Shown here in pieces: positions 1 to 13,774 of a stretch of DNA of 13,774 nucleotides. Source of the stretch: Anaerolineae bacterium (GTDB lineage Bacteria > Chloroflexota > Anaerolineae > 4572-78 > NAK82); the NCBI GenBank assembly GCA_030598425.1, contig JAUVPY010000015.1, positions 1 to 13,774 on the forward strand, read 5' to 3'. The notes under the pieces were generated by a model, which saw only the letters and a program-made list of their open reading frames with translations, had not been told where the DNA came from and searched no databases. Position numbers and translations under genes: made by a program. Every line of letters begins with the position of its first letter. The stretch's first letter is position 1.

Positions 1-736
1 GCGCATGCTCTCGCAGTCTTACGTGGCCTTCGATGTCATCCGGCGGGAGCGCCTCTTCGAACCAGACGATATCATAGTCGGCCAGCATCTTGGCCGTCTC
101 AAGCGCCCATTTGTAGGAGTGTGGCCAGAACTGGTCGCTGGCCCCCGCATCCACCATCAGTTCAACGTCGGGACCCACCGTTTCTCGGGCAGTTTTGACC
201 AGCAGCTCGTCCATCTTCCGGCTTACGCGGCCAAAAGGACGCCATCCCATTTTGATCGCCCTAAATCCTCGGGCCATGACTGATTCGAGCCTGGCTTTCA
301 GCGCTTCGGGCTCGCCAAATAAGATAGACCCGTAAGGCTTGATGGAGTTTCGATAGTAGCCCCCCAGTAAGCGTCCCACCGGCTGGCCCGTTACCTTGCC
401 CAGAATGTCCCACAGGGCAATGTCGATACCGCTGATGGTGTGAGTGACGGCTCCGCCCCTTCCCTGCCAAAACGTAAGCTGGTGCAGTTTTTCTGTGACT
501 CGTTCGGGCTCAATGGCGATCTCACCTATCAGGAAAGGACGGAGTAATCTTAATGAGGCATCTACCAGCGCTTTGCTGGTGTAGACACTGCCAAAGCCGT
601 ACACGCCTTCATCTGTCAGGATTTTTATGAGCGTGTGCAGGTTCTCTGAAGGATCAATCTCATCCGCCCACCCGCCTTCGGGGGTTTGGCTTAACAAGGC
701 GATGGTTTTTATCTCAGCGATCTTCATTTTATCCAT
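1..736 (-). CDS. Mandelate racemase / muconate lactonizing enzyme family protein (enolase superfamily), partial at C-terminus
   Basis: The open frame gives 245 residues before the window edge; family members are usually 360-400 residues, so about a third is missing. Residues 1-125 form the enolase N-terminal capping domain, with the typical segment SGIDIALWDILGK near 102-114. The barrel domain follows: AIKMGW (K162) on the strand that normally carries the KxK motif, the metal-ligand strand LMVDAG (D196), and the next ligand strand WFEEALPPDD (E227/E228). The third metal ligand lies outside the window. Position 164, normally the second Lys of KxK, is Gly, so the acid/base chemistry cannot be read from the motif and substrate is unknown; sugar-acid dehydration or racemization is plausible. 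GGAGG lies 3 bases before this ATG and 12 before a second ATG at 727 (MKIAEIKT), which is the more family-like N-terminus, so the start is uncertain. Codon use is less GC-biased than in the upstream activase. It is probably last or late in the minus-strand unit. Confidence 0.88.
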   Translation of the reverse strand, partial: MDKMKIAEIKTIALLSQTPEGGWADEIDPSENLHTLIKILTDEGVYGFGSVYTSKALVDASLRLLRPFLIGEIAIEPERVTEKLHQLTFWQGRGGAVTHTISGIDIALWDILGKVTGQPVGRLLGGYYRNSIKPYGSILFGEPEALKARLESVMARGFRAIKMGWRPFGRVSRKMDELLVKTARETVGPDVELMVDAGASDQFWPHSYKWALETAKMLADYDIVWFEEALPPDDIEGHVRLREHA

Positions 737-828: not shown

Positions 829-1602
829 TTAATCAGTCCCATCCCGCGCCAGCAGCGCCGCGCCCAGCGCGCCGACGATCTGCGGCTCCTCGGGCACGAT
901 CAACGTCTCGCCCAGCACCTCCTCCAGCGCGCGCACCACGCCCACGTTCTTGGCCACGCCACCGGCGAAGGCCACCGGCGGCTCCACCCCCACCCGGCGC
1001 GCCATACCGCCCACCCGCCGGGCGATGGAGCGGCAGATGCCGGCCACGATCTCCTCGCGCGGCACCCCCTCGGCCACCAGGGTGACCACTTCCGACTCGG
1101 CAAAGACGGTGCAGGTGCTGGAGATGTCCGCCGCGCGTCGGGCGCGCAGCGCGCGGGGGCCCATCTCGTCCAGGTCCAGTTCCAGGGCGCGGGCGATCAC
1201 CTCCAGAAAGCGCCCCGTGCCGGCGGCGCACTTGTCGTTCATGGCAAAGTCCAGCGGCTTGCCCCCCGGCCCGACAGCCACCACCTTGGAGTCCTGCCCG
1301 CCGATGTCGATCACCGTCTGGGCCTCGGGGTAAAGGTGGTGGATGCCGCGCGCGTAGCAGGAGATCTCCGTCACCTAGCTGTCGGCAAACTCGACGGCCA
1401 TCCGCCCGTAGCCGGTGGCCACGACGGGCTCCAGTTGCTCCCGCGCCAGGCCGCTCTGGGCCAGTGCCTCGTCCAGCGCCAGCCCCGCCGCCCGGCGGCT
1501 GTTGTAGCCGGTGTCCACCACCGACCAGGCCACGACCCGATCCCCCTCCAAAATAAGCGCCTCACCCGACGTCGAGCCAATGTCAATTCCCACGGCGTAC
1601 AT
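829..1602 (-). pseudogene. HgdC/BcrA-BadF-type ATPase (2-hydroxyacyl-CoA dehydratase activase), interrupted by an in-frame TAG at codon 76
   Basis: This is the ATP-dependent electron-injecting activator of 2-hydroxyacyl-CoA dehydratases and benzoyl-CoA reductases, an ASKHA-fold homodimer bridged by one [4Fe-4S] cluster. Read through the stop, the frame gives 257 codons, the normal family length (about 260). Motifs in order: phosphate-1 loop GIDIGSTS (5-12), ATGYGR (62-67), TEISCYARG (78-86), phosphate-2 DIGGQDSKV (99-107), cluster loop NDKCAAGTGRF (C125), SSTCTVFAESE (C164), and adenosine-loop region AGGVAKN (213-219). C125 and C164 match the two cluster cysteines of Acidaminococcus HgdC. TAG (1377-1375) separates FADS from VTEIS with no frame change, where relatives usually have Lys or Gln. 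A GTG follows directly, so reinitiation is conceivable, but I see no good ribosome-binding site for it. The main start ATG has a G-rich tract 7-8 bases upstream. It lies 145 bases after the large dehydratase subunit. It is either a recent point-mutation pseudogene, a suppressed amber codon, or a sequencing error. Confidence 0.88.
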
Positions 1603-1747: not shown

Positions 1748-3025
1748 TCAGACCAACATCTCCACAAACGCCTCAACCCGCGTCCGCAGCGGCCCCAATT
1801 GCAGGTTGACCGGGTCCACGCAGTCGCCGTCCAGGATCAGCAGCGGGATCCCCTCTCGCCGCAACTGATCGCGCACGACCCGCAGCGCGCCCGAGGACTG
1901 GCGACAGCCCCAATGGCTGAAGTGGACGGCACCGGCGCAGTCGTAGCGGGCGACGTGGCGCAACGCCATGTCCACCCGCCGCTCCACCGTTCCGTTCAGC
2001 GGATGGGACAGCATCTTGCGGGCCAGGGAGCGGGTCGGCTCTTCTTCGTCTAGCCTGTCCCACCAGACGGTGCTGAACTCCTCAAAAGCGATCACGGCGC
2101 CCAGGTCGTCCTCCAGGTGAGGAAGGAAATCCGTCTCGTACTGGGGTCCCAGGTGCATCCAATAGAGGCGTACCTTCTGGACCGCCTGCTCCGGCTCGGC
2201 GCGCCCTATCCGCTCCTGTGTATAGTCCCGCAGCGCCCGGTAATAGGCGACGCCCGCCGGGTGGCCGAACAGCGAGCTCAGGTTGCCCAGTTCACCCAGC
2301 ATGGACGAGCCACGCAGCGGGGCCGGGTGTGCCTCGCGCAGCGCTGCCACTTCCAAGGCCAGCGCCCGGGCCTGGTTGGAGAGACGGATCGCCCCCCGCA
2401 AACGTTCTGGATCGTAGGGAACTCCCGACTCCGCCGCCCAGCGCTCTACCAACTCATCCAGTTGCGCCGCCAGGTACGTCACAGCCGCCTCGTCGTCGCT
2501 CTGGGGCACATCCAGCAGGACGAACGGGCGGCCTTCGGCGTGGGCAAAGCCGGCCAGCATCTGGCCGGTCACGTCGCACAGGTTGGAGGTGGCCACGTAG
2601 GCGTCGGCGCGGGGATATAGACCGGCGGCGCGCAGGCCGGCCGCGGCCCGGTTGAAGGTGCACAGATCGACCGGGTAGCCCAGCGCCTCGGCCCCTTCCA
2701 CCCCCAGGCGGCTCAAACCCAGGATAGCGGAGAGGCTTGCCCACGTCTCTGGGTAGAAAGGCACCAGCCCCAGCCCCCACATCAGCTCGCAGGGGGCGAA
2801 GAGGTTGGTCCACACCACGGGCGTGGACCGGTCGGCGTAGGCCCGTGCCGCCAGTTCCAGGAAGAAGTCCGCCACCACCCGGTCGTGGGGCCTGGTCGCA
2901 ACCCCCTGGGCCAGCCAGGCCCGTGCCAGCCGCAGCCCCAGCCGGGAACGCATCAACCGCTTCAACGCACCGATTTGCAGCCGGTCTCGCGTTGGCCGTC
3001 CATTGCCGGTGATCCGTTTCAACAT
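1748..3025 (-). CDS. 2-hydroxyacyl-CoA dehydratase family protein, large HgdB/BcrB-like subunit
   Basis: The 425-residue protein belongs to the family of 2-hydroxyglutaryl-CoA dehydratase and benzoyl-CoA reductase subunits, cytoplasmic radical enzymes that bind a [4Fe-4S] cluster per subunit and take a high-energy electron from the activase. Visible landmarks: APCELMWGLGLVPFYPE (77-92, the conserved PxEL...G...P start of the first Rossmann-like domain), DLCTFNRAA (C122), TSNLCD (C150), HFSHWGCRQSSGALR (C374), and the C-terminal block LILDGDCVDP...RTRVEAFVEML. C122, C150 and C374 have the spacing of the usual three cluster ligands. I chose ATG at 3025 because GGAGGG stands 4 bases upstream; the frame stays open to 3079, but those extra 18 codons merely translate the intergenic repeat. 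It lies 57 bases downstream of the small subunit and before the activase, the usual complement of such a system. Substrate is unknown; a homomeric double-cubane protein is less likely given the paired subunit. Confidence 0.9.
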   Translation of the reverse strand: MLKRITGNGRPTRDRLQIGALKRLMRSRLGLRLARAWLAQGVATRPHDRVVADFFLELAARAYADRSTPVVWTNLFAPCELMWGLGLVPFYPETWASLSAILGLSRLGVEGAEALGYPVDLCTFNRAAAGLRAAGLYPRADAYVATSNLCDVTGQMLAGFAHAEGRPFVLLDVPQSDDEAAVTYLAAQLDELVERWAAESGVPYDPERLRGAIRLSNQARALALEVAALREAHPAPLRGSSMLGELGNLSSLFGHPAGVAYYRALRDYTQERIGRAEPEQAVQKVRLYWMHLGPQYETDFLPHLEDDLGAVIAFEEFSTVWWDRLDEEEPTRSLARKMLSHPLNGTVERRVDMALRHVARYDCAGAVHFSHWGCRQSSGALRVVRDQLRREGIPLLILDGDCVDPVNLQLGPLRTRVEAFVEMLV

Positions 3026-3050
3026 GTGTCCCTCCGCGAAAACACTGAAA

Positions 3051-3085
3051 CACGAATTACACGAATAGACGAATGGCACGAATTA
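3051..3085. repeat. Short CACGAAT repeat overlapping the small-subunit stop codon
   Basis: CACGAATTA occurs at 3051-3059 and 3077-3085, with CACGAATAGACGAAT between them. The copy at 3077-3085 contains the TAA stop of the upstream gene (3085-3083). The array fills much of the 57-base gap between the two dehydratase subunits, and its sequence differs from the repeats in other gaps. Confidence 0.7.
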
Positions 3086-4147
3086 ATGCAACATTTCCAG
3101 GAACGCTTCGACCCGCGTGCGGTGTTGCCCGCTGACAGCCTCGTCCTCCAGCTCCAGGAGCAAAACCGGTACGCCCAATCCCTCCAGATGCGCCTTCAGG
3201 CTGGGATACTCGGCCAGGTACAGGTCGCAGAACTTGCTGTAGGCGCAGATGGCGGCCTGGGCGCCGCGCTCGGCCACCAGCCGGCTGAGATAAGCCAGGC
3301 GACGGGACAGGTCGCGCATCCGCGGGGCTGGCGGTTTTGACAGATAGGCACGTGCCAACGCGGCCAGGGTCTCCGTCAACGTCCCCGCGTCGGCCGGAAC
3401 CGGCTCCGCCATGTCGCGCTCGTCCAGATCGGAGTCCTCGGCTACCACCTGTGCGCCCTTCGCCTCGACCAAACGCACCAGCCCGGCGGGGGCGGCCAAT
3501 TCTGCCAACAGGAGCAGGCGCCGGGCTGGCGGGTCGGAGGAGCCATTTACACCACCCTCCGAAGCCGCCAGGGTCTCCCGCAGCCGCTCGTTGGCCGTCA
3601 CCGGGTCCTGGGTGAGCGCGGTCCGGCGCAGTCGCCGGTAAGCCACCGTGTTCACGCTCCCGGCCAGCCAGTGACGTTTGAGGTCGGCCAGCAGACTCCT
3701 CTGCTCGTTAAACACGGCGATGGCCCGGCGCAGGCTGTGGGCGCCCAGTGATCGCCCCGTGTGAGCCTCCAGGTCGGCGACCAGGCGGGCCAGGATATCG
3801 GCGTAGCGATCGGCAGCTAAGGGAGTGGCGGCGCGTGGCACCTCCACGAAGCCCCAGACCGGCACTGTTACACTTGCGCGCCAGACGTCGTGCAGCCGCC
3901 GCGTTGCGTCATCCTCGTCGGCAAAGATCACGGCGTCCAGGCCGGCGTTCTTTTCTTCCAGAAACCCCGCCAGGATGAGTCGGTCCAGCGAGCAGAAGTT
4001 GCGCGGCAGGAAGGCCTCAGCAGCCGTCGGCTTCCCGGCTGAGGGGAAGACCCGCACCGGCCTGCACCCCAGGGCGTAGACTAGCTCCCGGGGGAGGTAA
4101 GAACTGAATAGGCCAACGGTTGGGGCTAGAGGATCCTCATCGATCAT
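3083..4147 (-). CDS. 2-hydroxyacyl-CoA dehydratase family protein, small HgdA/BcrC-like subunit with an altered cluster motif
   Basis: The 354-residue protein is a second member of the dehydratase/benzoyl-CoA reductase subunit family, presumably partnering the large subunit encoded next. Landmarks: SSYLPRELVYALGCRPVRV (15-33), NFCSLDR (C52), FADEDDATRRLHDVW (75-89), SKFCDLYLAEYPSLK (C307), and the closing block LLELEDEAVSGQHRTRVEAF (330-349). These are strong matches to the family pattern. The oddity is at residue 79: relatives read TCD or SCD here, giving the second cluster Cys, while this protein reads EDD. A further often-conserved Cys in the DDLC-like segment is also absent (EDSDLDER, 237-244). 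C52 and C307 remain. It may bind a cluster with an Asp ligand, bind an altered cluster, or be structural. GAGG stands 6 bases before ATG, and it is the first gene of the minus-strand unit. Confidence 0.88.
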   Translation of the reverse strand: MIDEDPLAPTVGLFSSYLPRELVYALGCRPVRVFPSAGKPTAAEAFLPRNFCSLDRLILAGFLEEKNAGLDAVIFADEDDATRRLHDVWRASVTVPVWGFVEVPRAATPLAADRYADILARLVADLEAHTGRSLGAHSLRRAIAVFNEQRSLLADLKRHWLAGSVNTVAYRRLRRTALTQDPVTANERLRETLAASEGGVNGSSDPPARRLLLLAELAAPAGLVRLVEAKGAQVVAEDSDLDERDMAEPVPADAGTLTETLAALARAYLSKPPAPRMRDLSRRLAYLSRLVAERGAQAAICAYSKFCDLYLAEYPSLKAHLEGLGVPVLLLELEDEAVSGQHRTRVEAFLEMLH

Positions 4148-4321: not shown

Positions 4322-4345
4322 GTGACCGTTCACGTGAGCGCTCAC
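4322..4345. promoter_or_regulatory. Two abutting lac-like operator palindromes
   Basis: GTGACCGTTCAC (4322-4333) and GTGAGCGCTCAC (4334-4345) stand directly side by side between the -10 box and the start codon. The second is a perfect palindrome, extending to CGTGAGCGCTCACG (4333-4346), and matches the core of the ideal symmetric lac operator; the first shares the GTGA...TCAC arms. The regulator encoded immediately downstream keeps the Gln and Arg that contact this core in E. coli LacI, so autorepression is the natural reading. Confidence 0.75.
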
Positions 4346-4349
4346 GACT

Positions 4350-5369
4350 ATGAAGCGACGAGTCACCATCGAAGATGTGGCCCGCGCGGCTGGCGTCTCG
4401 CGCCAGACCGTCTCCCGCGCCATCAACAACAAGGGTGAAATCAGCCCTGCCACTCGGGAACGGGTGCTGGAGGCTGTGCGGGCCTTGGATTACCGGCCCA
4501 GCCGAGTGGCGCGAGGCCTGGCCACCCGGCGCACCCGAACCATTGGCTTGGTCGTGCCCGACATTACCAACCCCTTCTTCCCCGAGATTGCCCGGGGCGT
4601 GCAAGACGTCGCCCGGGGGGCGGACTACAGCGTCTTTCTGTGTAACACTGACGAGAGTCCAGATGAGGAACTCCAGGTACTTCGCTCGCTGGCTGCCCAG
4701 CCGGTGGATGGCATTCTCCTCTTCGGCAGCCGCATCAACGACGATGACGCGGCCGCCTTCGCCGATGGTTACCGGCCCCTGGTGGTGCTCAACCGCGTCT
4801 TGGAGCATCCGGGGGTTAGCCTGATCCTGGTAGACAATCAGCGGGGTGCGAAGCTGGCCGTAGATCACCTGGCCAATAAGGGGCACACCGCCATCGGAAT
4901 GCTGGCCGGGCCGGTAACATCACCTAGCAGCGCGCAACGGGTTGAGGGATTTCGCCAGGCGATGGCCGCCCGTGGCCTGTCCACCCCCGAGGATTGGATC
5001 CTGCCGGGTCACCCGACCATTGAGGGTGGGCACGCGGCAGCCCGACACTTGCTGACGGGACATCCCCAGGTATCGGCCCTCTTCACTTATAATGACTTGA
5101 GCGCTCTGGGGGCGGCGCAGGCCAGCCTTGAGCTGGGCCGCCGTGTGCCTGCCGGTTGTGCCATTATTGGCTTCGACGATGTCCGCCTGGCGGCCATGGT
5201 CAGTCCATCGTTGACCAGTGTGCGGGTAAACAAATACTACCTGGGCCAGCAGGCCATGATCCGTCTCCTGGCCATGCTCGACGAGCCCGACGCGATTTTC
5301 CCTCCCATTCGTGTTGACGTAGAATTGGTAGTGCGTGAGTCGACACAGAAAAGTGAGATTGGAGATTAG
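4350..5369 (+). CDS. LacI-family transcriptional regulator
   Basis: The 339-residue protein has normal LacI-family length. Residues 5-26 form the DNA-binding helix-turn-helix (VTIEDVARAAGVS, then RQTVSRAIN), residues 49-62 the hinge helix region (RPSRVARGLATRRT), and residues about 64-335 a periplasmic-binding-protein-like sensor domain (IGLVVPDITNPFFPEIARG; later GFDDVRLAAMVSPSLTSVR). The recognition helix carries Q19 and R23, aligned with Q18 and R22 of E. coli LacI, which fits the GTGAGCGCTCAC palindromes just upstream. The effector is probably a sugar acid or related intermediate, judged only from the genes downstream. ATG at 4350 is chosen because it puts the helix-turn-helix at the usual distance; no good ribosome-binding site precedes it. 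The gene stands between two divergent units and may control both. Its stop codon lies inside an inverted repeat. Confidence 0.93.
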   Translation: MKRRVTIEDVARAAGVSRQTVSRAINNKGEISPATRERVLEAVRALDYRPSRVARGLATRRTRTIGLVVPDITNPFFPEIARGVQDVARGADYSVFLCNTDESPDEELQVLRSLAAQPVDGILLFGSRINDDDAAAFADGYRPLVVLNRVLEHPGVSLILVDNQRGAKLAVDHLANKGHTAIGMLAGPVTSPSSAQRVEGFRQAMAARGLSTPEDWILPGHPTIEGGHAAARHLLTGHPQVSALFTYNDLSALGAAQASLELGRRVPAGCAIIGFDDVRLAAMVSPSLTSVRVNKYYLGQQAMIRLLAMLDEPDAIFPPIRVDVELVVRESTQKSEIGD

Positions 5370-5514: not shown

Positions 5515-6357
5515 GTGAAAGCTATGGATCTCAATGAACTCACAAAGATGTACGACTTTGCCGGCAAGACGGTAGTCATCACCGGAGGAGCCGGAATACT
5601 GGGTGGCGAGATAGCCTGCGCGCTGGCAGGGTGCGGCGCCAACGTCGCTATCGTGGATCTTGATCCAAGTCTGGCCGACCGGCTGATACCCCGTCTCGAG
5701 GCCAGCCAGGGCCGGGCCATCGTGCTTGGCACGGATGTACTCAACACCGAAGTCCTGGAAGGGACCGCTCAACAGGTCATCGAGGCCTTCGGGCGGGTAG
5801 ATTGCCTGATCAACGGTGCTGGTGGCAACAACCCCCGCGCGACCACAGGACCCGATCAATCGTTCTTTGAGTTGCCATCCGATGCCTTACGCTTCGTATT
5901 CGACCTGAACATCATAGGGACGGTTTTGCCCAGCCAGGTTTTCGGCAAATACATGACTGGGCAGGGCGAGGGTGTCATTCTCAACGTCTCATCGATGAAC
6001 GCACTGCGCCCTTTGACCAAGATCCCGGCTTATTCGGCAGCCAAGGCAGGCGTCAGCAACTTCACCCAGTGGCTGGCGGTTCACATGGCTCAAGAGTATT
6101 CGCCCAACATCCGGGTCAACGCCATCGCGCCTGGTTTTTTCCTGACCACTCAGAACAAGTTCCTGTTGGTCGACGAGGCCAGCGATGAACTGACGCCGCG
6201 CGGCCAAACCATCGTCGACCACACCCCAATGGGCCGCTTTGGCGATCCAGAGGATTTGCTCGGTACCGTGCTCTGGCTGCTTTCGCCCGCCTCGACCTTC
6301 ATCACCGGCGTGGTGGTGCCCATCGATGGTGGGTTCTCAGCGTTCAGCGGAGTGTAG
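5515..6357 (+). CDS. SDR-family D-mannonate oxidoreductase (fructuronate reductase), YjmF/UxuB type
   Basis: This short-chain dehydrogenase is predicted to reduce D-fructuronate to D-mannonate with NADH in hexuronate catabolism. Cofactor motif TGGAGILG (23-30); an acidic residue after strand 2 (IVDLD, D48) favours NAD(H); NAG-like INGAGG (99-104); N132; catalytic S160, Y173 and K177 (NVSSMNA and PAYSAAKAG). The blocks SSMNALRPLTKIPAYS, NFTQWLAVH, RVNAIAPGFF, TPMGRFGDPEDLLGT and VPIDGGFSAFSGV closely match Bacillus YjmF-like mannonate oxidoreductases rather than generic SDRs. Length 280 fits. GTG at 5515 has AGGA 5 bases upstream; ATG at 5524 is an alternative with weaker spacing. It follows the LacI-type regulator by 145 bases and belongs with UxaE at the end of the unit, since UxaE makes its substrate. 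A different aldonate specificity cannot be excluded. Confidence 0.87.
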   Translation: MKAMDLNELTKMYDFAGKTVVITGGAGILGGEIACALAGCGANVAIVDLDPSLADRLIPRLEASQGRAIVLGTDVLNTEVLEGTAQQVIEAFGRVDCLINGAGGNNPRATTGPDQSFFELPSDALRFVFDLNIIGTVLPSQVFGKYMTGQGEGVILNVSSMNALRPLTKIPAYSAAKAGVSNFTQWLAVHMAQEYSPNIRVNAIAPGFFLTTQNKFLLVDEASDELTPRGQTIVDHTPMGRFGDPEDLLGTVLWLLSPASTFITGVVVPIDGGFSAFSGV

Positions 6358-6368
6358 GGATGGAAGGT

Positions 6369-6459
6369 TGGAAGACTGGAAGATTGGAAGGTTGGTAGGC
6401 TGGCAACCCGGACGATAGTTTTTGCCAATCTTCCAGCCATCCAATCTTCCAGTCTTCCA
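6369..6459. repeat. 19-bp perfect inverted repeat in the SDR-HAD gap
   Basis: TGGAAGACTGGAAGATTGG (6369-6387) is exactly complementary to 6441-6459, and a third partial copy CCAATCTTCCAG lies at 6425-6436. Each arm is itself a tandem of TGGAAGA(C/T)-like units. The array starts within about ten bases of the SDR stop codon. The loop is about 53 bases and no U-tract follows, so it is not a classical terminator. Confidence 0.85.
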
Positions 6460-6531
6460 GGCTCTTGGACGAAAGGCCCACGACCAGGGCTAGAGTCACA
6501 CACCAATCACAACACTTAATTGGAGGATACT

Positions 6532-7431
6532 ATGCCTGACTATCCCGAAGCAGCCCGCCCTTTGGCGGAGCTAAGCCCCAAACACCAGTTTTTCGTCGGC
6601 ATCGACTCCGACGGCTGCGCCTTCGACACCATGGAAATCAAGCACAAAGAGTGCTTCTGCCCCAATACCATCAAGCATTGGGGCTTGCAGCCGGTATCGA
6701 AGTATGCGCGCGAGGCAGCCGAATTCGTCAACCTGTACTCCAAGTGGCGCGGCATCAACCGCTGGCCGGCGGTGGTTATGGTCTTCGACCTGCTGCGTGA
6801 GCGACCGGAGGTGCAGGCACGGCATGTGGTTCCGCCGGAGGCTCCCCGCGTGCGCGAATTCATCGCCGACGACGCCTACCCCAAGAGCAATGACGGTCTG
6901 AAGGCGTATATGGCCGAGCGCCCCGATCCAGAATTAGAGAGGGCCTGGGCCTGGACAACGGGCGTCAATCAAACCGTGGCCGACATGGTGCACGATGTCC
7001 CTCCCTTCCCCTATGTGCGCGAGAGCCTGGAATTCCTGGCCGACAAAGCCGACATGATCGTCGTTTCGGCCACCCCCGTCGAAGCGCTAACCCGCGAGTG
7101 GGAGGAGCACGACATCGCCAAGTATGTGCGCGTCGTTGCCGGTCAGGAGTTGGGCAAGAAGGCCCTGCACCTGGAGCTGGCGGCCCGGGGCAAATATGAT
7201 TCCGATCGCATCTTAATGATCGGAGACGCGCCGGGCGATATGAACGCCGCTCGCGCCAACGATGCGCTCTTCTACCCGATAAACCCTGGCTATGAGGAGG
7301 AGTCCTGGCAGCGGTTCCACGACGAGGGGGTGCATAAGTTTCTGGCAGGCGAGTACAAAGGCGCATACGAAGCCCAACTCGTCGCTGAGTTCGAAAAGCT
7401 GCTGCCCGAGGTGCCGCCCTGGAAACGGTAG
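6532..7431 (+). CDS. HAD-superfamily hydrolase
   Basis: The 299-residue protein carries all four haloacid dehalogenase-type motifs: motif I GIDSDGCAFDT (nucleophile D25, acid/base D27), motif II VVSAT (S179), motif III Lys at K209 or K210 (GQELGKKAL), and motif IV GDAPGDMNAA (D232, D236). The DxD motif points to phosphoryl hydrolysis. About 120 mostly helical residues between motifs I and II form a large C1-type cap, which sets substrate choice; the cap segment with CFCPNTIKHWG (41-51) and NLYSKWRGINRWP (67-79) is distinctive but I cannot assign a substrate. No signal peptide. GGAGG lies 5 bases before ATG 6532; an upstream in-frame TTG at 6520 overlaps that site and is unlikely. It sits between the mannonate oxidoreductase and the LarA homologue, so a sugar-acid phosphate is a reasonable guess only. 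Confidence 0.88.
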   Translation: MPDYPEAARPLAELSPKHQFFVGIDSDGCAFDTMEIKHKECFCPNTIKHWGLQPVSKYAREAAEFVNLYSKWRGINRWPAVVMVFDLLRERPEVQARHVVPPEAPRVREFIADDAYPKSNDGLKAYMAERPDPELERAWAWTTGVNQTVADMVHDVPPFPYVRESLEFLADKADMIVVSATPVEALTREWEEHDIAKYVRVVAGQELGKKALHLELAARGKYDSDRILMIGDAPGDMNAARANDALFYPINPGYEEESWQRFHDEGVHKFLAGEYKGAYEAQLVAEFEKLLPEVPPWKR

Positions 7432-7470
7432 CAAGTAGCAGAGTATCAGGTATTAAGGTGGCAGGTAGCA
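7428..7470. repeat. GTAGCA repeat seeded at the HAD stop codon
   Basis: GTAGCA occurs at 7428-7433, 7435-7440 and 7465-7470; the first copy contains the TAG stop (7429-7431). Between them are related degenerate units. The rest of the 98-base gap up to the LarA gene has no clear promoter. Confidence 0.6.
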
Positions 7471-7529
7471 GAACTGAACGTGACTGCTGTCTGCGGTCTG
7501 GCTAGCCTGCGAGGGGAGAGAATTGACTA

Positions 7530-8819
7530 ATGGTTATAGGCAAGGGATACGAAGACAGTTTTTTATCAGAGGCCGAAACAAAAGATCTGATGACGGAAGC
7601 GCTGGAGCAAGCTGATCTGACCGGCAAGCGGGTGCTGGTTCTTGTACCCGACGGGACCCGCACTGCGCCCACTCCGATGATGTTCCGACTGTTCCAGGAC
7701 ATCCTGGCCGGACGGGTAGCAGCCCTGGACTATCTGGTGGCCCTGGGCACTCATCAGCCAATGAGCGACGCAGCCCTGAGTCAACTGGTCGGCCAGCCGG
7801 TGGTGGGCGGGAAGGTGGGAGACACTCATATCTTCAACCACCGCTGGGATCAGCCGGAGACCTTCGTCACCCTGGGCACCATCCCCGCCACCAGGATCGA
7901 GGAGATCAGCAAGGGACTGCTGTCTATGGAGGTGCCGGTCAGGCTCAACCGCCTGATCCTGGACTACGACAGCATCTTCATCTGCGGGCCTACCTTCCCT
8001 CACGAAGTGGTCGGCTTCTCCGGCGGCAACAAATACTTCTTCCCCGGCATCAGCGGCCCCGAGGTCATCAACTTCTCTCATTGGCTGGGGGCGCTTCTCA
8101 CCAGCTACGAGATCATCGGCACCCCGGACACGCCGGTGCGGGCGGTAATCGACCAGGCGGCCTCCTTCATCGACCGGCCACAACTGGGTTTCAGCATGGT
8201 CGTCAAGACTGATGCTGCCCACAATCCCAGGTTGGCCGGGCTGTACATCGGGGCCCCTCAAGAGGCGTACGCCGCCGCCGCCGAGCTGTCGAGCCGCCTG
8301 CACATCGTGTGGGTGGACCGCCCCTTCCAGCGAGTACTCAGCGTGATGCCCCATATGTACGACGACATCTGGACCGCGGCCAAGGGGATGTATAAGATGG
8401 AACCGGCCATCGCCGATGGCGGCGAGGTGATTATCTACGCCCCCCATATCGACGAAATCTCATACACCCACGGCGGCGTCATTGACCAGATTGGCTACCA
8501 CGTGCGCGATTACTTCGTCAAACAGTGGGACCGCTTTAAGAAATATCCCTGGGGCGTGCTGGCGCATTCCACGCACTTGCGGGGTATCGGCACCTTTGAG
8601 AACGGCATCGAAAAGGCGCGCATTGACGTAACCCTGGCCACCAGTATCCCTCGTCAACGCTGCGAGCAAGTGTGCCTGGGCTATATGGACCCTGACGCCA
8701 TCAATACGGATGAATGGCAGGGCCGTGATGAGGAAGGCATCCTACTGGTGCCCAAGGCTGGGGAAATGCTGTACCGAGTGAAACCGGCAAATCAGCAAAT
8801 CGGCAAATCGGCAAATTGA
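7530..8819 (+). CDS. LarA-family (lactate racemase-like) nickel-pincer enzyme, candidate mannonate/gluconate 2-epimerase
   Basis: LarA enzymes invert alpha-hydroxy acids by hydride transfer to a nickel-pincer nucleotide covalently held by Lys. The 429-residue protein keeps the landmarks: PDGTRTAP (40-47, the DHTRP-type loop), ALGTHQPMS (71-79; H75 aligned with LarA H108), FNHRWDQPE (102-110), GPTFPHEVVGFSGGNKYFFP (153-172) with H158 and K168 spaced 10 apart, as H174 and tethering K184 are in Lactiplantibacillus LarA. Family length is about 420-430. The cofactor makers LarB, LarC and LarE are not in the window. The neighbours handle mannonate upstream and 6-phosphogluconate downstream, so C2 epimerization of mannonate to gluconate is an attractive inference; I recall gluconate 2-epimerase activity being reported for some LarA homologues. 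GAGGGGAG precedes ATG 7530 with rather long spacing (about 12). The last 11 residues are encoded by an 8-base repeat. Confidence 0.85.
   Translation: MVIGKGYEDSFLSEAETKDLMTEALEQADLTGKRVLVLVPDGTRTAPTPMMFRLFQDILAGRVAALDYLVALGTHQPMSDAALSQLVGQPVVGGKVGDTHIFNHRWDQPETFVTLGTIPATRIEEISKGLLSMEVPVRLNRLILDYDSIFICGPTFPHEVVGFSGGNKYFFPGISGPEVINFSHWLGALLTSYEIIGTPDTPVRAVIDQAASFIDRPQLGFSMVVKTDAAHNPRLAGLYIGAPQEAYAAAAELSSRLHIVWVDRPFQRVLSVMPHMYDDIWTAAKGMYKMEPAIADGGEVIIYAPHIDEISYTHGGVIDQIGYHVRDYFVKQWDRFKKYPWGVLAHSTHLRGIGTFENGIEKARIDVTLATSIPRQRCEQVCLGYMDPDAINTDEWQGRDEEGILLVPKAGEMLYRVKPANQQIGKSAN
8785..8816 (+). repeat. Four tandem copies of CGGCAAAT at the 3' end of the larA-like gene
   Basis: CGGCAAAT, CAGCAAAT, CGGCAAAT and CGGCAAAT run head to tail from 8785 to 8816, with the TGA stop following directly. 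Because the 8-base unit is not a multiple of three, it reads in changing frames as PANQQIGKSAN. The array is therefore partly coding, unlike the repeats in other gaps. Confidence 0.85.
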
Positions 8820-8914
8820 CAAGTCAAGAAGCGAAATACGCTCGGCTGGTGACGAATTGCAGGTTGAGCATTTTGCCTCGAGTAGAGAAATAGAAACACA
8901 AAGGAGAGTGAAAA

Positions 8915-10369
8915 ATGGAAGCAAAAGCAGACTTTGGTCTCATCGGACTGGCCGTGATGGGCCAGAACCTGGTCCTCAATATGGACGACAACGGTTTCGC
9001 CGTGGCGGTGTTCAACCGCACTGTGTCCAAGGTAGACGACTTTATCAACGGCAACGCCAAGGGCACCAAGGTCATCGGCACTCACTCCGTCGAAGAGTTC
9101 GTGAGCGCGCTCAAGCGTCCGCGCCGGGCGATGTTGCTGGTCAAAGCCGGCCCAGCGGTGGACAGTTTCATTGATATGCTCATTCCCCACCTGGAACCGG
9201 GCGACATCATCATTGACGGCGGCAACTCCAACTATCACGACACCATGCGCCGCACCGAATACGTGGAATCCAAAGGGCTGCTCTACATCGGTACCGGTGT
9301 CTCCGGCGGCGAGGAAGGGGCGCGCTATGGTCCATCCATCATGCCTGGCGGGTCGCCCGACGCCTGGCCGCACGTCAAGCCCATTTTCCAGGCCGTTGCC
9401 GCCAAAGTGGACGACGGTTCGCCTTGCTGCGACTGGGTCGGCGAAAATGGCGCGGGCCACTTTGTGAAGATGACCCACAACGGCATCGAATACGGCGACA
9501 TGCAGCTCATTTGCGAGGCCTACCACCTGATGAGGGTCGGGCTGGGCCTGAGCAACGACGAAATGAGCGCCATATTTGCTGAGTGGAACGAAGGCAAACT
9601 CGATTCCTACCTGATCGAGATCACCCGCGACATCCTGGCTTACAAAGGCGAGGATGGTGAGCAAGTAGTGGACAAAGTGCTCGACACCGCGGGCCAGAAG
9701 GGCACTGGCAAATGGACGGCAATCTCGGCCCTGGACATGGGCATTCCCTTGACGCTGATCGGCGAGGCCGTCTTTGCCCGCTTTCTGTCGGCCCTCAAAG
9801 AGGAACGGGTGGCCGCCTCCAAAGTTCTGACCGGCCCCGCGGCCAAGTTCGATGGTGATAAAGCGGCCTTCATCAACGACCTGCGGGAAGCGCTGTACGC
9901 CTCCAAAATTATCTCTTACACTCAGGGTTACATGCTTATGCGGGCCGCGGCCAAAGAATATGGCTGGAACCTGAACTACGGCGGCATCGCCCTGATGTGG
10001 CGCGGCGGGTGTATCATCCGCTCCGCCTTCCTGGGCAAGATCAAGGAAGCCTTCGATGAGAACCCCGAACTCAGTAACTTGTTGCTGGCGCCATACTTCA
10101 AGCATGAAGTGGAAGCAGCGCAGGGAGCCTGGCGGCGTGTCGTCGCGAAGGGGGTTGAGATGGGTATGCCGGTACCGGCTATGTCCAGCGCCCTGGCCTT
10201 CTACGATGGCTACCGCCACGAGCGCTTGCCAGCCAATCTTCTGCAGGCGCAGCGCGACTACTTTGGCGCGCACACCTACGAGCGGGTCGACCGGCCGCGC
10301 GGTGAGTTCTTCCACACCAATTGGACGGGCACGGGTGGCGATGTGACCGCGAGCACGTACGTGGCGTGA
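8915..10369 (+). CDS. gnd: 6-phosphogluconate dehydrogenase (decarboxylating)
   Basis: The enzyme oxidatively decarboxylates 6-phosphogluconate to ribulose 5-phosphate in the oxidative pentose phosphate pathway. The 484-residue length is that of the long, dimeric form. Motifs in order: dinucleotide fold [12 protein letters not shown] (11-22), FNRTVSK (33-39), where NRT after strand 2 favours NADP+, IIIDGGNS (98-105), the substrate motif [12 protein letters not shown] (126-137), the catalytic region [17 protein letters not shown] (181-197, K185), then the all-helical domain, and a family-typical C-terminal tail ([10 protein letters not shown]). AAGGAG stands 8 bases before ATG. Only 7 bases separate its stop from the phosphofructokinase start, so the two are surely co-transcribed. 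Its place after the LarA homologue suggests gluconate produced in this unit is meant for it after phosphorylation. Confidence 0.97.
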
Positions 10370-10376
10370 GAATACC

Positions 10377-11672
10377 ATGGCTAGACCTAACAACGTTGTC
10401 GTAGCTCAATCGGGCGGACCGACGCCCGTCATCAACAGCACTCTGCGCGGCATCGTGGAGATGTGCAAAGCGATGCCCGATAAGTTCGGCACCATCTACG
10501 CTGGCTTTCACGGTATCGAGGGCGTGCTCAAGGAAGAGTTGCTCGATATGTCCGCCCAGTCCAAGGAGGAAATCTGCCTGCTGAGCGTGACCCCGGCTGC
10601 CGGGGGCATCGGCACCTGCCGTTATAAGCTGAAAGCGCACCAGGGAGAGGATTTCGAGCGCGTGATCGAGGTCTTCAAAGCCCACGACATCGGCTACTTC
10701 TTCTACATCGGCGGCAACGACTCAATGGACACCGCCAACCAAGTGGCGGGCCTGGCTCACAAGCGTGGTTTGGACCTGGTCGCCGTCGGTGGTCCCAAGA
10801 CCATTGACAACGACGTAGGCGACAGCGAATTCAAGCTGATCGATCACACCCCGGGCTACGGCAGCGTCGCCCGCTATTGGGCGCTGGCCGTGCAAAACGC
10901 CAACGAGGAGAACGCGGGCTCCTGCCCCTCGGACCCGGTACTGGTGATCCAGGCGATGGGTCGCAAGATCGGCTTCATCCCGGCTGCGGCTCGGCTGGCT
11001 GACCCCGACCGGGCAATGCCGCTGCAAATCTATATGCGGGAATCCGGCCTGACGCTGGGGCAGATGGCCAACCTGGTCAACGACGAGCTGAAGCAAAGCG
11101 GGCGCTGCATCGTGGTAGTCAGCGAGGGCTTCGATGTGGGTGAATTGGGTGAGCGCAGAGACAGCTTCGGGCACACTCAATTCTCATCCAGCGCCACCAC
11201 CGTCGAGCAAGTGGTCGTCAATTACCTTAACGACGTTGGATTGGCAGCGCACGGCTCCGCACGCGGCAACGTCCCCGGCACCGACCAGCGCCACAACATG
11301 ATCTACGCCTCGACCGTGGACATGGAAGAGGCATACAAACTGGGGCAGAAGGCGGTGGAGATCGCTGTGGAAGATGGCTCTGGTTATATGAGCACCATCT
11401 TGCGCGATCCGGGTCCTATCTACCGCGTTAGCTACGACAAAGTGCCGCTGGAAAAGGTCGCCAACTCCGAGCGACACTTTCCCAAACAATGGATCACCGA
11501 GAATCGGGTTGACGTGACCGATGAATTCGTACGCTACGCTCGCCCGCTCATCGGCGAAAACTGGCCCGCCATCCCACTGGTGGATGGGCGGCAACGCTTC
11601 GCCCGCTTGGAGCATATCTTCGCGCCACAAACGTTATCAGACTACGTACCGCAGACGCAGCGGCAGGCGTGA
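10377..11672 (+). CDS. Phosphofructokinase, PPi-dependent type
   Basis: The 431-residue protein has the phosphofructokinase fold: AQSGGPTPVINSTLRG (10-25), IGGNDSMDTA (111-120), PKTIDNDV (140-147), HTPGYGSVARY, the fructose-6-phosphate motif QAMGRKIGF, and SEGFD. Two positions separate PPi- from ATP-dependent enzymes: the GGDGS of ATP enzymes is here GGNDS, with Asp in place of the permissive Gly, and PGTIDND is PKTIDND, with the Lys characteristic of PPi users. So it should catalyse reversible PPi-linked phosphorylation of fructose 6-phosphate; some PPi enzymes also accept sedoheptulose 7-phosphate, which would suit pairing with 6-phosphogluconate dehydrogenase. Asn for the first Asp of GGDDS is a variant I recall in one PFK clade. 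The start lies 7 bases after gnd with no strong ribosome-binding site, implying translational coupling. Confidence 0.92.
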   Translation: MARPNNVVVAQSGGPTPVINSTLRGIVEMCKAMPDKFGTIYAGFHGIEGVLKEELLDMSAQSKEEICLLSVTPAAGGIGTCRYKLKAHQGEDFERVIEVFKAHDIGYFFYIGGNDSMDTANQVAGLAHKRGLDLVAVGGPKTIDNDVGDSEFKLIDHTPGYGSVARYWALAVQNANEENAGSCPSDPVLVIQAMGRKIGFIPAAARLADPDRAMPLQIYMRESGLTLGQMANLVNDELKQSGRCIVVVSEGFDVGELGERRDSFGHTQFSSSATTVEQVVVNYLNDVGLAAHGSARGNVPGTDQRHNMIYASTVDMEEAYKLGQKAVEIAVEDGSGYMSTILRDPGPIYRVSYDKVPLEKVANSERHFPKQWITENRVDVTDEFVRYARPLIGENWPAIPLVDGRQRFARLEHIFAPQTLSDYVPQTQRQA

Positions 11673-11739
11673 TGCGGGAAGACATGATCCGTGATGCGGG
11701 AAACGTGATCTGAATCACGCATCACGTTTCCCGCGTCAC
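11669..11739. repeat. Direct and inverted repeat forming a 19-bp hairpin after the phosphofructokinase gene
   Basis: GTGATGCGGGAA occurs at 11669-11680, overlapping the TGA stop (11670-11672), and again at 11691-11702. The second copy extends to GTGATGCGGGAAACGTGAT (11691-11709), which pairs 18 of 19 with 11721-11739 around an 11-base loop. The only T-rich stretch after the stem is short and mixed, so efficient termination is doubtful. Confidence 0.85.
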
Positions 11740-11787
11740 GCTTCTCGTTTCGCACCTAATCCACCATAATCCATACGGAGGCATTCT

Positions 11788-13356
11788 ATGACACTTGCTA
11801 ATCAGTTGCTCACATCTGCCGAGCTAGCCCAACCCTTGCCCCTCGCTGAGGCAGAGACACTGGCCGGCGAACTGAGTCGCGTCGCCGGCATGAGCGTCTA
11901 CCCTCGCTCGATTGCGGCAAGGGGCTGTGTCCTTTTCTTCCTGGGGCGACGTGACACGCACAAGTTCCTGGGCGCTATCCACGCCGGGGCTGCTCTGGCT
12001 GGCGAATTTACCGGCGAGACGCGTGAGGTCACCCTGAATGGTGGTAACGCTCTCGTCTTGACGCAATGCCCCACGGACCCCGCCAACGCCGCGGCGTTAC
12101 GCACGGCTCTACCCTTCACGGCGCCGGTCACGCTGGGCCTGTGCAAGTCTATCGGATGCGGCGACCGGCTGGGGTTGGCCACGCCGGGCCACGTGCGCGC
12201 CGTGCGCAAGGGGAATATGGCCCCCATCTTCGCTCAGCAGTCCATCCGCGAGATGACGCGCACCCAGCGCACCCCTGAGGAGGTGATGGACGACGCCAGC
12301 TGGGGTGTCTTCCAGGAGGGCTGGCGCGAACGCTTTGGGGCCGACGCCGACCACCTCAAGACACCCGATGACGTAGACCGCTGCGTCGCTGCCGGGTTTG
12401 TCTTCTACACAGTCGACCCCGGCGACCACGTGGACAACGCCGCCGATGCCGATGACCCAGCCACCCTGCGCCAGAAGGTCGAGGCCCTCCCGTGGGATGA
12501 TCTGGAAGCGTCCCCCGATGACCTGCGGCGCTCATACCTCGGGCGGGAGTTCGACGTGGGCGACTTCGCTGTCACCTTCAGCGAGGAGGATTTGCTGCGC
12601 GCGGCGGCCAAATACGGTCGAGCCGTGGCTCACACCGTCCGCATGTACCGCCGCGTGGCGGACCAGATGGGCGACCGTCCGTTTGAACTGGAGATGTCGG
12701 TAGACGAGACGGAGACGCCGACCACCATCCCCGAGCACTACTTCGTCGCCAGCGAACTCAATCGACTGGGAGTGGAGTGGGTCAGCCTGGCCCCGCGCTA
12801 CATCGGCCGCTTTGAAAAGGGCGTAGACTACATCGGCGATCTGACTGTCTTTGAGGCCGACTTCGCCCGACATGTGGCCATCGCTAGCGCATTGGGACCC
12901 TACAAACTCAGCCTGCACTCCGGCTCCGACAAATTCAGCATCTACCCAATTTTCGATCGCGTGGCCGGCGACCTGGTGCACTTGAAGACGGCTGGCACCA
13001 GCTACCTGGAGGCCCTGCGGGCCACCGCCGGCACAGACCCTGGCCTGTTCCGCGAGATTCTGGCCTTCGCCTTTGAGCGATATGCTGAAGATCGCGCCTC
13101 GTACCACGTCTCTGCTGATCCGGCCAAAGTCCCCACGCCTGATCAACTGGCTGATGGCGAGTTAGCCACAGTACTGGATGATTTTGACGGACGGGAGATG
13201 CTGCACGTCACCTTCGGGTCGGTACTAACGGTCGCAGATGCCGCTGGAGGATATCGGTTCCGAGATCGGCTTCTAGCCGCGCTTCAGGCCGACGAGGAGG
13301 CGCACTATGCCGCCCTGGAGGCCCACTTTGACCGTCACATCGCACCATTTGGTTGA
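11788..13356 (+). CDS. uxaE: D-tagaturonate epimerase (UxaE family)
   Basis: UxaE interconverts D-tagaturonate and D-fructuronate, joining the galacturonate branch to the glucuronate branch in one step; it was described in Thermotoga and relatives. The 522-residue protein matches the family from end to end: GMSVYPRSIAARGCVLFFLG (34-53), GLCKSIGCGDRLGLATPGH (117-135), SVDETETPTTIPEHYFVA (304-321), GVEWVSLAPRYIGRFEKGVDY (328-348) and LHSGSDKFSIYP (376-387). The Asp, Glu and His clusters in these segments fit a metal-dependent barrel enzyme. GGAGG lies 6 bases before ATG 11788. It is the last gene of the plus-strand unit, 115 bases after the phosphofructokinase. With the mannonate oxidoreductase it defines uronate catabolism. 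No UxaC isomerase, UxuA dehydratase, KDG kinase or transporter is in the window, so the pathway is either completed elsewhere or runs by a different route. Confidence 0.9.
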   Translation: MTLANQLLTSAELAQPLPLAEAETLAGELSRVAGMSVYPRSIAARGCVLFFLGRRDTHKFLGAIHAGAALAGEFTGETREVTLNGGNALVLTQCPTDPANAAALRTALPFTAPVTLGLCKSIGCGDRLGLATPGHVRAVRKGNMAPIFAQQSIREMTRTQRTPEEVMDDASWGVFQEGWRERFGADADHLKTPDDVDRCVAAGFVFYTVDPGDHVDNAADADDPATLRQKVEALPWDDLEASPDDLRRSYLGREFDVGDFAVTFSEEDLLRAAAKYGRAVAHTVRMYRRVADQMGDRPFELEMSVDETETPTTIPEHYFVASELNRLGVEWVSLAPRYIGRFEKGVDYIGDLTVFEADFARHVAIASALGPYKLSLHSGSDKFSIYPIFDRVAGDLVHLKTAGTSYLEALRATAGTDPGLFREILAFAFERYAEDRASYHVSADPAKVPTPDQLADGELATVLDDFDGREMLHVTFGSVLTVADAAGGYRFRDRLLAALQADEEAHYAALEAHFDRHIAPFG

Positions 13357-13481: not shown

Positions 13482-13774
13482 TCAGCTTGCCGCAGAACCC
13501 ACCTCCTCTGTCGCGGCCTGTTCCGGCAATGACGTCGCCAAGACCGGAGGTCGCTCGGTGGCAATGGGCAGGGTGAAAGTGAAACACGTCCCGAGTCCTT
13601 CCTCGCTGTCTACCCAGATTTCTCCGCCGTGGGCTTCCACCAACCCCTTCGCAATCGACAATCCCAGGCCGGTGCCGACCGTTTGCTGTATCTCGGGGCG
13701 CTCCACACGACTGAAGCGATCAAAGATGTCTGGCAACAAGTCGGCCGGGATGCCAATGCCGGTGTCGCTCACGC
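13482..13774 (-). CDS. Sensor histidine kinase, C-terminal part (partial at 5' end)
   Basis: About 97 residues of a histidine kinase catalytic ATP-binding domain are present; the sensor, any transmembrane segments and the phosphorylated His lie beyond the right edge. Visible boxes: G1 SDTGIGIP, F box [12 protein letters not shown], and G2 [22 protein letters not shown] followed by GTCFTFTLP. The order and spacing are those of HisKA-type kinases (HATPase_c). The roughly 25 residues after the domain ([12 protein letters not shown] onward) are a short Ala/Glu-rich tail without an apparent domain. The gene converges on uxaE, is followed by its own terminator, and is probably unrelated to the sugar-acid unit. 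Its input signal cannot be judged. Confidence 0.93.

Follow-up and report, generated by a model that had tools for sequence, protein, structure and literature searches.

The 13,774-nucleotide stretch analysed here (the window) is an entire contig, C479 or JAUVPY010000015.1, of the Anaerolineae bacterium genome assembly GCA_030598425.1, and it carries the plus-strand gene series LacI-SDR-HAD-LarA-GND-PFK-UxaE. Gene order, protein families, residues and genomic distribution together make it fairly probable that this operon is a hexuronate unit of the Thermotoga type, in which a protein of the phosphofructokinase family (PFK) would serve as a pyrophosphate (PPi)-dependent gluconate kinase. The pathway itself is already known, and the analysis suggests that the PFK-family kinase in the gluconate kinase slot is the interesting part. 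More broadly, the balance tips slightly towards a clade of the PFKA family having become a PPi-dependent gluconate 6-kinase that replaces GntK, FGGY or PfkB kinases in Chloroflexota, Acidobacteriota and other bacteria, at a cost of PPi and not ATP. In the open-access literature searched, with subscription papers mostly outside it, no report of a PPi-dependent gluconate kinase was found, and the accessible part of a 2025 list of known PPi-dependent kinases (PMC12632266) names none for gluconate.

In the predicted route, the tagaturonate-fructuronate epimerase UxaE would convert tagaturonate to fructuronate, which the short-chain dehydrogenase/reductase (SDR) would reduce to D-mannonate. The nickel-pincer LarA homologue would then invert C2 to give D-gluconate, and the PFK-family protein would move phosphate from PPi onto C6 of gluconate, in the role that an FGGY, GntK or PfkB kinase has in sister operons. 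For this step, the C1 carboxylate of gluconate would sit where the 6-phosphate of fructose 6-phosphate (F6P) lies, held by R296 and R305, with the C6 hydroxyl facing PPi. Finally, 6-phosphogluconate dehydrogenase (Gnd) would oxidise 6-phosphogluconate to ribulose 5-phosphate. The features of the locus are as follows.

4333..4346, no strand: perfect 14-bp palindrome directly before the LacI gene, possibly an operator
4350..5369, plus strand: LacI-family regulator (Pfam LacI 69.8 bits, cut-off 27; Peripla_BP_3 114 bits)
5515..6357, plus strand: SDR, D-mannonate oxidoreductase of UxaD/YjmF type (NCBIfam PRK08277/NF006132 362 bits, cut-off 281), predicted to take fructuronate to mannonate
6520..7431, plus strand: HAD-superfamily protein between the SDR and larA (PF13419 29.5 bits, cut-off 23.8)
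7530..8819, plus strand: LarA-superfamily epimerase, predicted D-mannonate/D-gluconate 2-epimerase, GntE-like (Pfam Lar_N 72 bits, cut-off 23.3)
8915..10369, plus strand: decarboxylating 6-phosphogluconate dehydrogenase, Gnd (TIGR00873 777 bits, cut-off 427)
10377..11672, plus strand: phosphofructokinase-family protein, clade A (PRK14072 diphosphate--fructose-6-phosphate phosphotransferase 374 bits, cut-off 273)
11788..13356, plus strand: UxaE, tagaturonate-fructuronate epimerase (PF16257 522 bits, cut-off 27.1)

An original prediction made from the letters of this DNA had identified the SDR, larA, gnd, PFK and uxaE genes, and all five are present on the plus strand at the positions it gave, with families above their cut-offs; its inventory was correct as far as it went and left out the HAD gene and the LacI regulator. 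The regulator lies 145 bp upstream of the SDR on the same strand, and the gaps between larA and gnd, gnd and pfk, and pfk and uxaE are 95, 7 and 115 bp, respectively. The complete order is found again in related genomes (L032, L033, L112), and this recurrence indicates that the arrangement is more than chance. A LacI gene also heads the operon in these three loci and in L034. Since the window is a whole contig of a fragmented genome (482 contigs, 63.36% complete), the operon may continue past position 13774.

The same prediction had joined these families into a chain from tagaturonate to ribulose 5-phosphate by way of gluconate. As a deduction from UxaE, the SDR, the LarA homologue and Gnd the chain is well supported; it is not new, and the idea of an entirely novel pathway was rejected because the route has been described for Thermotoga maritima (PMC7583248, PMC3750489, PMC6978723). 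Gene context had led to the proposal that the T. maritima LarA homologue is a D-gluconate 2-epimerase (PMC7583248), and the entry of mannonate into the pentose phosphate pathway is credited to Rodionova et al. 2012 (PMC7583248, PMC6978723). The UxaR regulon of that organism comprises gnd, uxaE, uxaD, gntE and gntK (Rodionova 2012 via PMC3750489, PMC7583248, PMC6978723), and mannonate/gluconate 2-epimerase activity was demonstrated for GntE2 and GntE1 in 2020 (PMC7583248). The absence of uxuA noted in the window extends to the seven genomes of the source's family, the source (63% complete) included, in none of which UxuA was detected; it is present in 11 of 80 relatives.

The epimerase assignment is central to this chain. 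The closest solved structure to the window LarA is 4NAR (E 2.5e-71), which is T. maritima GntE2 (PMC7583248). Residues D41, R44, H75, H158, K168, H184 and K285 align with the catalytic and nickel-pincer nucleotide (NPN)-binding positions of LarA and GntE2, and the loop after H158 reads EV, the sequence reported for groups 18-20 (PMC7583248). The cofactor genes larB, larC and larE, whose absence would have refuted the original prediction by its own terms, lie together on contig C477 of the source genome (290, 477 and 350 bits, respectively). It is very unlikely that the substrate of the homologue is instead some other aldonate or aldarate, in which case the link from mannonate to gluconate would be wrong. 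Such a substrate would fit the score of 205 bits against the NCBIfam hexonate-epimerase model NF052594 NPN_18_hexonate, which is short of the cut-off of 500, and the remark that the native substrate of group 19 may be a different one (PMC7583248). The EV loop and the identity at catalytic and cofactor residues argue for the mannonate-gluconate assignment, as do operon neighbours that would produce mannonate and consume 6-phosphogluconate.

The remaining step is the phosphorylation of gluconate, which the original prediction assigned to a kinase outside the window. It was right that no classical gluconate kinase lies within it; it read the PFK by its family name, yet this protein may be the very kinase that it placed elsewhere. 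In the source genome (63% complete) the best GntK match scored 24.5 bits against a cut-off of 113.75, and the best FGGY match was 27% identical. The operons of relatives were compared in a set of 91 deduplicated LarA loci drawn from the window and 100 fetched loci. A PFK gene occurs in 20 of these and an FGGY, SKI (GntK-type) or PfkB kinase in 25, never both; the other 46 have neither, many of them ending at contig boundaries. The kinase slot is filled in more than one manner. An FGGY kinase adjoins larA in L044, L061, L068, L123 and L126, a GntK-type kinase is part of the operon in L093, L105 and L110, and a PfkB kinase follows gnd in L047, L058, L060, L064, L065 and L080, while in the window and its kin loci a PFK gene occupies the position behind gnd.

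In the Anaerolineaceae loci L047, L058, L060, L065, L080 and L084, the gene in the slot following gnd or larA is a PfkB gene resembling 2-keto-3-deoxygluconate (KDG) kinases, followed by a zinc alcohol dehydrogenase, a GFO/IDH/MocA gene and others. The substrate of this PfkB protein may be gluconate instead of KDG.

The same mutual exclusion is seen at the level of whole genomes. Among 80 relatives, the source genome included, 40 hold a close LarA (a homologue at 45% identity or more), 29 a PFK of clade A, 15 the FGGY clade and 4 a GntK above the cut-off. Clade A never overlaps with FGGY or GntK (Fisher 6e-5, a test that here and below ignores kinship), and 25 of the 29 PFK genomes also carry LarA (Fisher 1.5e-6); the FGGY clade shows no association with LarA (7 of 15 genomes). 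A further 50 LarA-bearing genomes, hand-picked from 80 LarA loci to spread phyla (Chloroflexota, Acidobacteriota, Planctomycetota, Latescibacterota and others), include 11 with PFK, 10 with FGGY and 6 with GntK, and no genome has more than one of the three (Fisher for PFK 0.0099). PfkB was searched in 80 LarA genomes, namely these 50 and 30 of the 40 LarA-bearing relatives, where 27 have PFK, 40 an FGGY, GntK-type or PfkB kinase of the kinds linked to these operons, and none both (Fisher 1.6e-11). The ten genomes left out of this search (G002, G003, G005, G011, G019, G043, G049, G055, G063, G071) were all covered for FGGY and GntK, and nine of them have clade A. Among themselves, the FGGY, GntK and PfkB kinases co-occur only in G072 and G079. 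Kinase cut-offs were set at natural score gaps (293 to 197 bits for FGGY, 639 to 321 bits for PfkB), and the PFK fragments of G022 (52 residues) and G093 (38 residues) were counted as absent.

Shared ancestry was considered by means of a phylogenetic tree with 86 distinct LarA proteins, on which the PFK label requires at least 15 changes, four of them forced by strongly supported branches. Each of 300 random pairings on this tree yields 15 independent pairs, in which the partner without PFK has another kinase in 6-12 pairs (most often 9-10) and the partner with PFK in none. The exchange is visible even within one family, f3, in which PFK is found in G010, G016 and G019, FGGY in G014, G020, G021 and G024, and PfkB in G022. 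Furthermore, 6 of the 11 genomes with uxuA also have PFK, so sugar-acid genes in general are not subject to the exclusion.

The PFK proteins of these loci form a group of their own. Relatives split by a clear gap into clade A, at 61-87% identity to the window protein, and ordinary PPi-dependent PFKs at 37-43%. At least 8000 relatives were scored in the homologue search, ordinary PFKs included, and none of the 120 top-scoring ones listed falls below 77% identity. Because ten genomes (G001, G003, G026, G031, G036, G045, G059, G066, G121, G128) hold both kinds, clade A is a specialised paralogue. Among the 39 clade A loci with more than 600 bp of upstream sequence, 27 have gnd less than 300 bp ahead of the PFK, and three (L045, L078, L095) have larA directly upstream with no gnd between.

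The main rival is that the protein is an ordinary PPi-dependent kinase of sedoheptulose 7-phosphate (S7P) and F6P, serving the non-oxidative pentose phosphate pathway after Gnd as a transaldolase bypass, with gluconate kinase encoded elsewhere in the genome. We regard this as unlikely, though it deserves serious attention: the PRK14072 match is over its cut-off, the solved structures closest to the protein are PPi-PFKs, S7P is the preferred substrate of the Methylococcus capsulatus enzyme (PMC5673643), and such a kinase would also suit a place beside gnd. What it fails to predict is the strict exclusion between PFK and gluconate-type kinases across the 80 LarA genomes, the adjacency of larA and pfk without an intervening gnd, and the second, ordinary PPi-PFK in the ten clade A genomes.

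The residues bear on donor and acceptor differently. The window PFK has D115 and K141, the PPi signature of D and K at positions occupied by G in ATP enzymes, and its acceptor side is altered; this signature, the catalytic D and the MGR arginine recur in each of the 37 clade A proteins compared. Relative to 15 ordinary enzymes, clade A has an insertion after TIDND, Q192 before xMGR (37/37, against E in 15/15), L189 (36/37, against K in 12/15) and PGTDQR in place of the mostly PxYLQR motif. In E. coli PFK, the positions holding the 6-phosphate are, as we take them to be, R162, R243, H249 and R252, with R296 and R305 of the window protein as the partners of R243 and R252. The R162 equivalent is lost and the H249 equivalent is T throughout the 37 proteins. 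The notion that all four 6-phosphate residues had gone was rejected, as the alignment shows two kept. The predicted structure (mean predicted local distance difference test score, pLDDT, 80.5) has low-confidence stretches at 148-155, 259-273 and 300-306, among which are the insertion and the altered loop, and its Foldseek TM score of 0.80 to 3hno confirms the fold and gives no indication of the substrate.

Several observations weigh against a gluconate kinase of the PFK family. The equivalents of R243 and R252 are retained in 37/37 clade A proteins and the R162 and H249 losses are partly common to the ordinary clade (P in 12/15, T in 4/15), so that residues alone cannot exclude F6P or S7P as substrate. 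PFK genomes hold distant FGGY kinases (e.g. G071 at 30% and 193 bits, G111 at 29% and 152 bits) and distant PfkB kinases (e.g. G084 at 36%, G082 at 38%), which also favours the S7P/F6P alternative, and any of these sub-cut-off proteins could phosphorylate gluconate. Moreover, 13 of the 80 LarA genomes lack all four kinases, some clade A loci (e.g. L216, L224) have neither gnd nor larA nearby, and the independent pairs on strongly supported branches number four, too few for significance. UxaC, which the original prediction had named among the genes to seek, was not detected in the source genome (63% complete). Lastly, the fragment of an enolase-superfamily sugar-acid dehydratase at the contig start leaves a small probability for a dehydratase branch.

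Uncertainty about the acceptor also extends to other acids of the route. The PFK might phosphorylate D-mannonate, for example, with epimerisation then taking place at the phosphate level, which we consider very improbable. The epimerase resembles GntE2, which is active on unphosphorylated mannonate (PMC7583248), and the pairing of PFK with gnd away from larA (L178, L179, L180) supports gluconate over mannonate as the substrate.

The HAD gene is coupled with gnd and PFK, and the HAD-gnd-pfk set also stands apart from larA in L179 and L180. The protein is strongly conserved, with the homologues listed being 82-93% identical, and belongs to no curated family. Its presence in 27 of the 91 LarA operons, including 16 of the 20 with PFK, could suggest that it, instead of the PFK, performs the missing phosphotransfer. 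This can be given very little credence, as the HAD gene also accompanies a PfkB kinase in two operons and is absent from four with PFK. A kinase role was rejected given that the HAD gene is found both alongside other kinases and apart from them and that the structure predicted for its protein is weak (mean pLDDT 73; below 50 in the other four models). No PDB sequence matched at E 0.1, and the best Foldseek matches are HAD hydrolases. HAD enzymes are mostly phosphatases, and the protein is probably an accessory phosphatase.

Other genes in the window and its kin can be described briefly. The enolase-superfamily fragment (2-736, minus strand) is the N-terminal part of its protein, cut off by the contig end; its best named family is galactonate dehydratase, at 92 of 311 bits, and it falls far short of every named dehydratase cut-off. 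An acyl-CoA dehydratase activase (829-1374, minus strand, extending to about 1600) matches TIGR00241 at 224 bits over profile positions 76-248 only, its N-terminal part lying just upstream in the same frame, separated by a single stop codon. Beside it are two proteins of the 2-hydroxyglutaryl-CoA dehydratase D-component (HGD-D) type (1748-3079 and 3083-4147, minus strand), 4 bp apart, neither of which passes any named NCBIfam equivalog cut-off. UxaC-family genes occur in 14 of the 91 related LarA operons. In the Acidobacteriota larA operons L045, L054, L062, L074, L086, L091, L095 and L111, a protein of about 480-675 amino acids on the opposite strand faces the operon and weakly resembles UxaE (in L062, a partial match of 58 bits).

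If the proposed kinase is confirmed, a very large group of proteins named 6-phosphofructokinase in databases would be misnamed, and an unphosphorylated sugar acid would be added to the substrates of a kinase family otherwise associated with sugar phosphates. The entry of gluconate could then draw on PPi as well as ATP as donor, and a gap would be filled in genome-scale models that lack a gluconate kinase for such bacteria.

Compared with known systems, the operon is closest to the T. maritima UxaR regulon, which likewise unites UxaE, an SDR-type mannonate oxidoreductase, a LarA-type gluconate 2-epimerase and Gnd. It differs in having the PFK-family and HAD genes where T. maritima has gntK, and a regulator of LacI type instead of UxaR of the GntR family. 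The galacturonate route of Lactobacillus suebicus (PMC6978723) similarly links an isomerase-pathway start to 6-phosphogluconate, although there the kinase precedes the epimerase. The window LarA shares the catalytic and NPN-binding positions, the EV loop and the best solved relative with LarAH20/GntE2 and LarA group 18 (PMC7583248), but it scores under the group 18 model cut-off and its activity is a prediction. With the PRK14072 PPi-PFKs (3HNO, 3K2Q and the M. capsulatus enzyme), the PFK shares its fold and PPi-type residues, whereas clade A is separate, about 40% identical to ordinary enzymes of the same genomes, marked by the TIDND insertion and the changed acceptor side, and linked to gnd and larA. 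Lastly, the myo-inositol kinase TM0415 (PMC5931981) and the KDG kinase LguH (PMC12632266) are sugar-type kinases that use PPi with unphosphorylated substrates, as is proposed here for gluconate, with TM0415 belonging instead to the ribokinase family.

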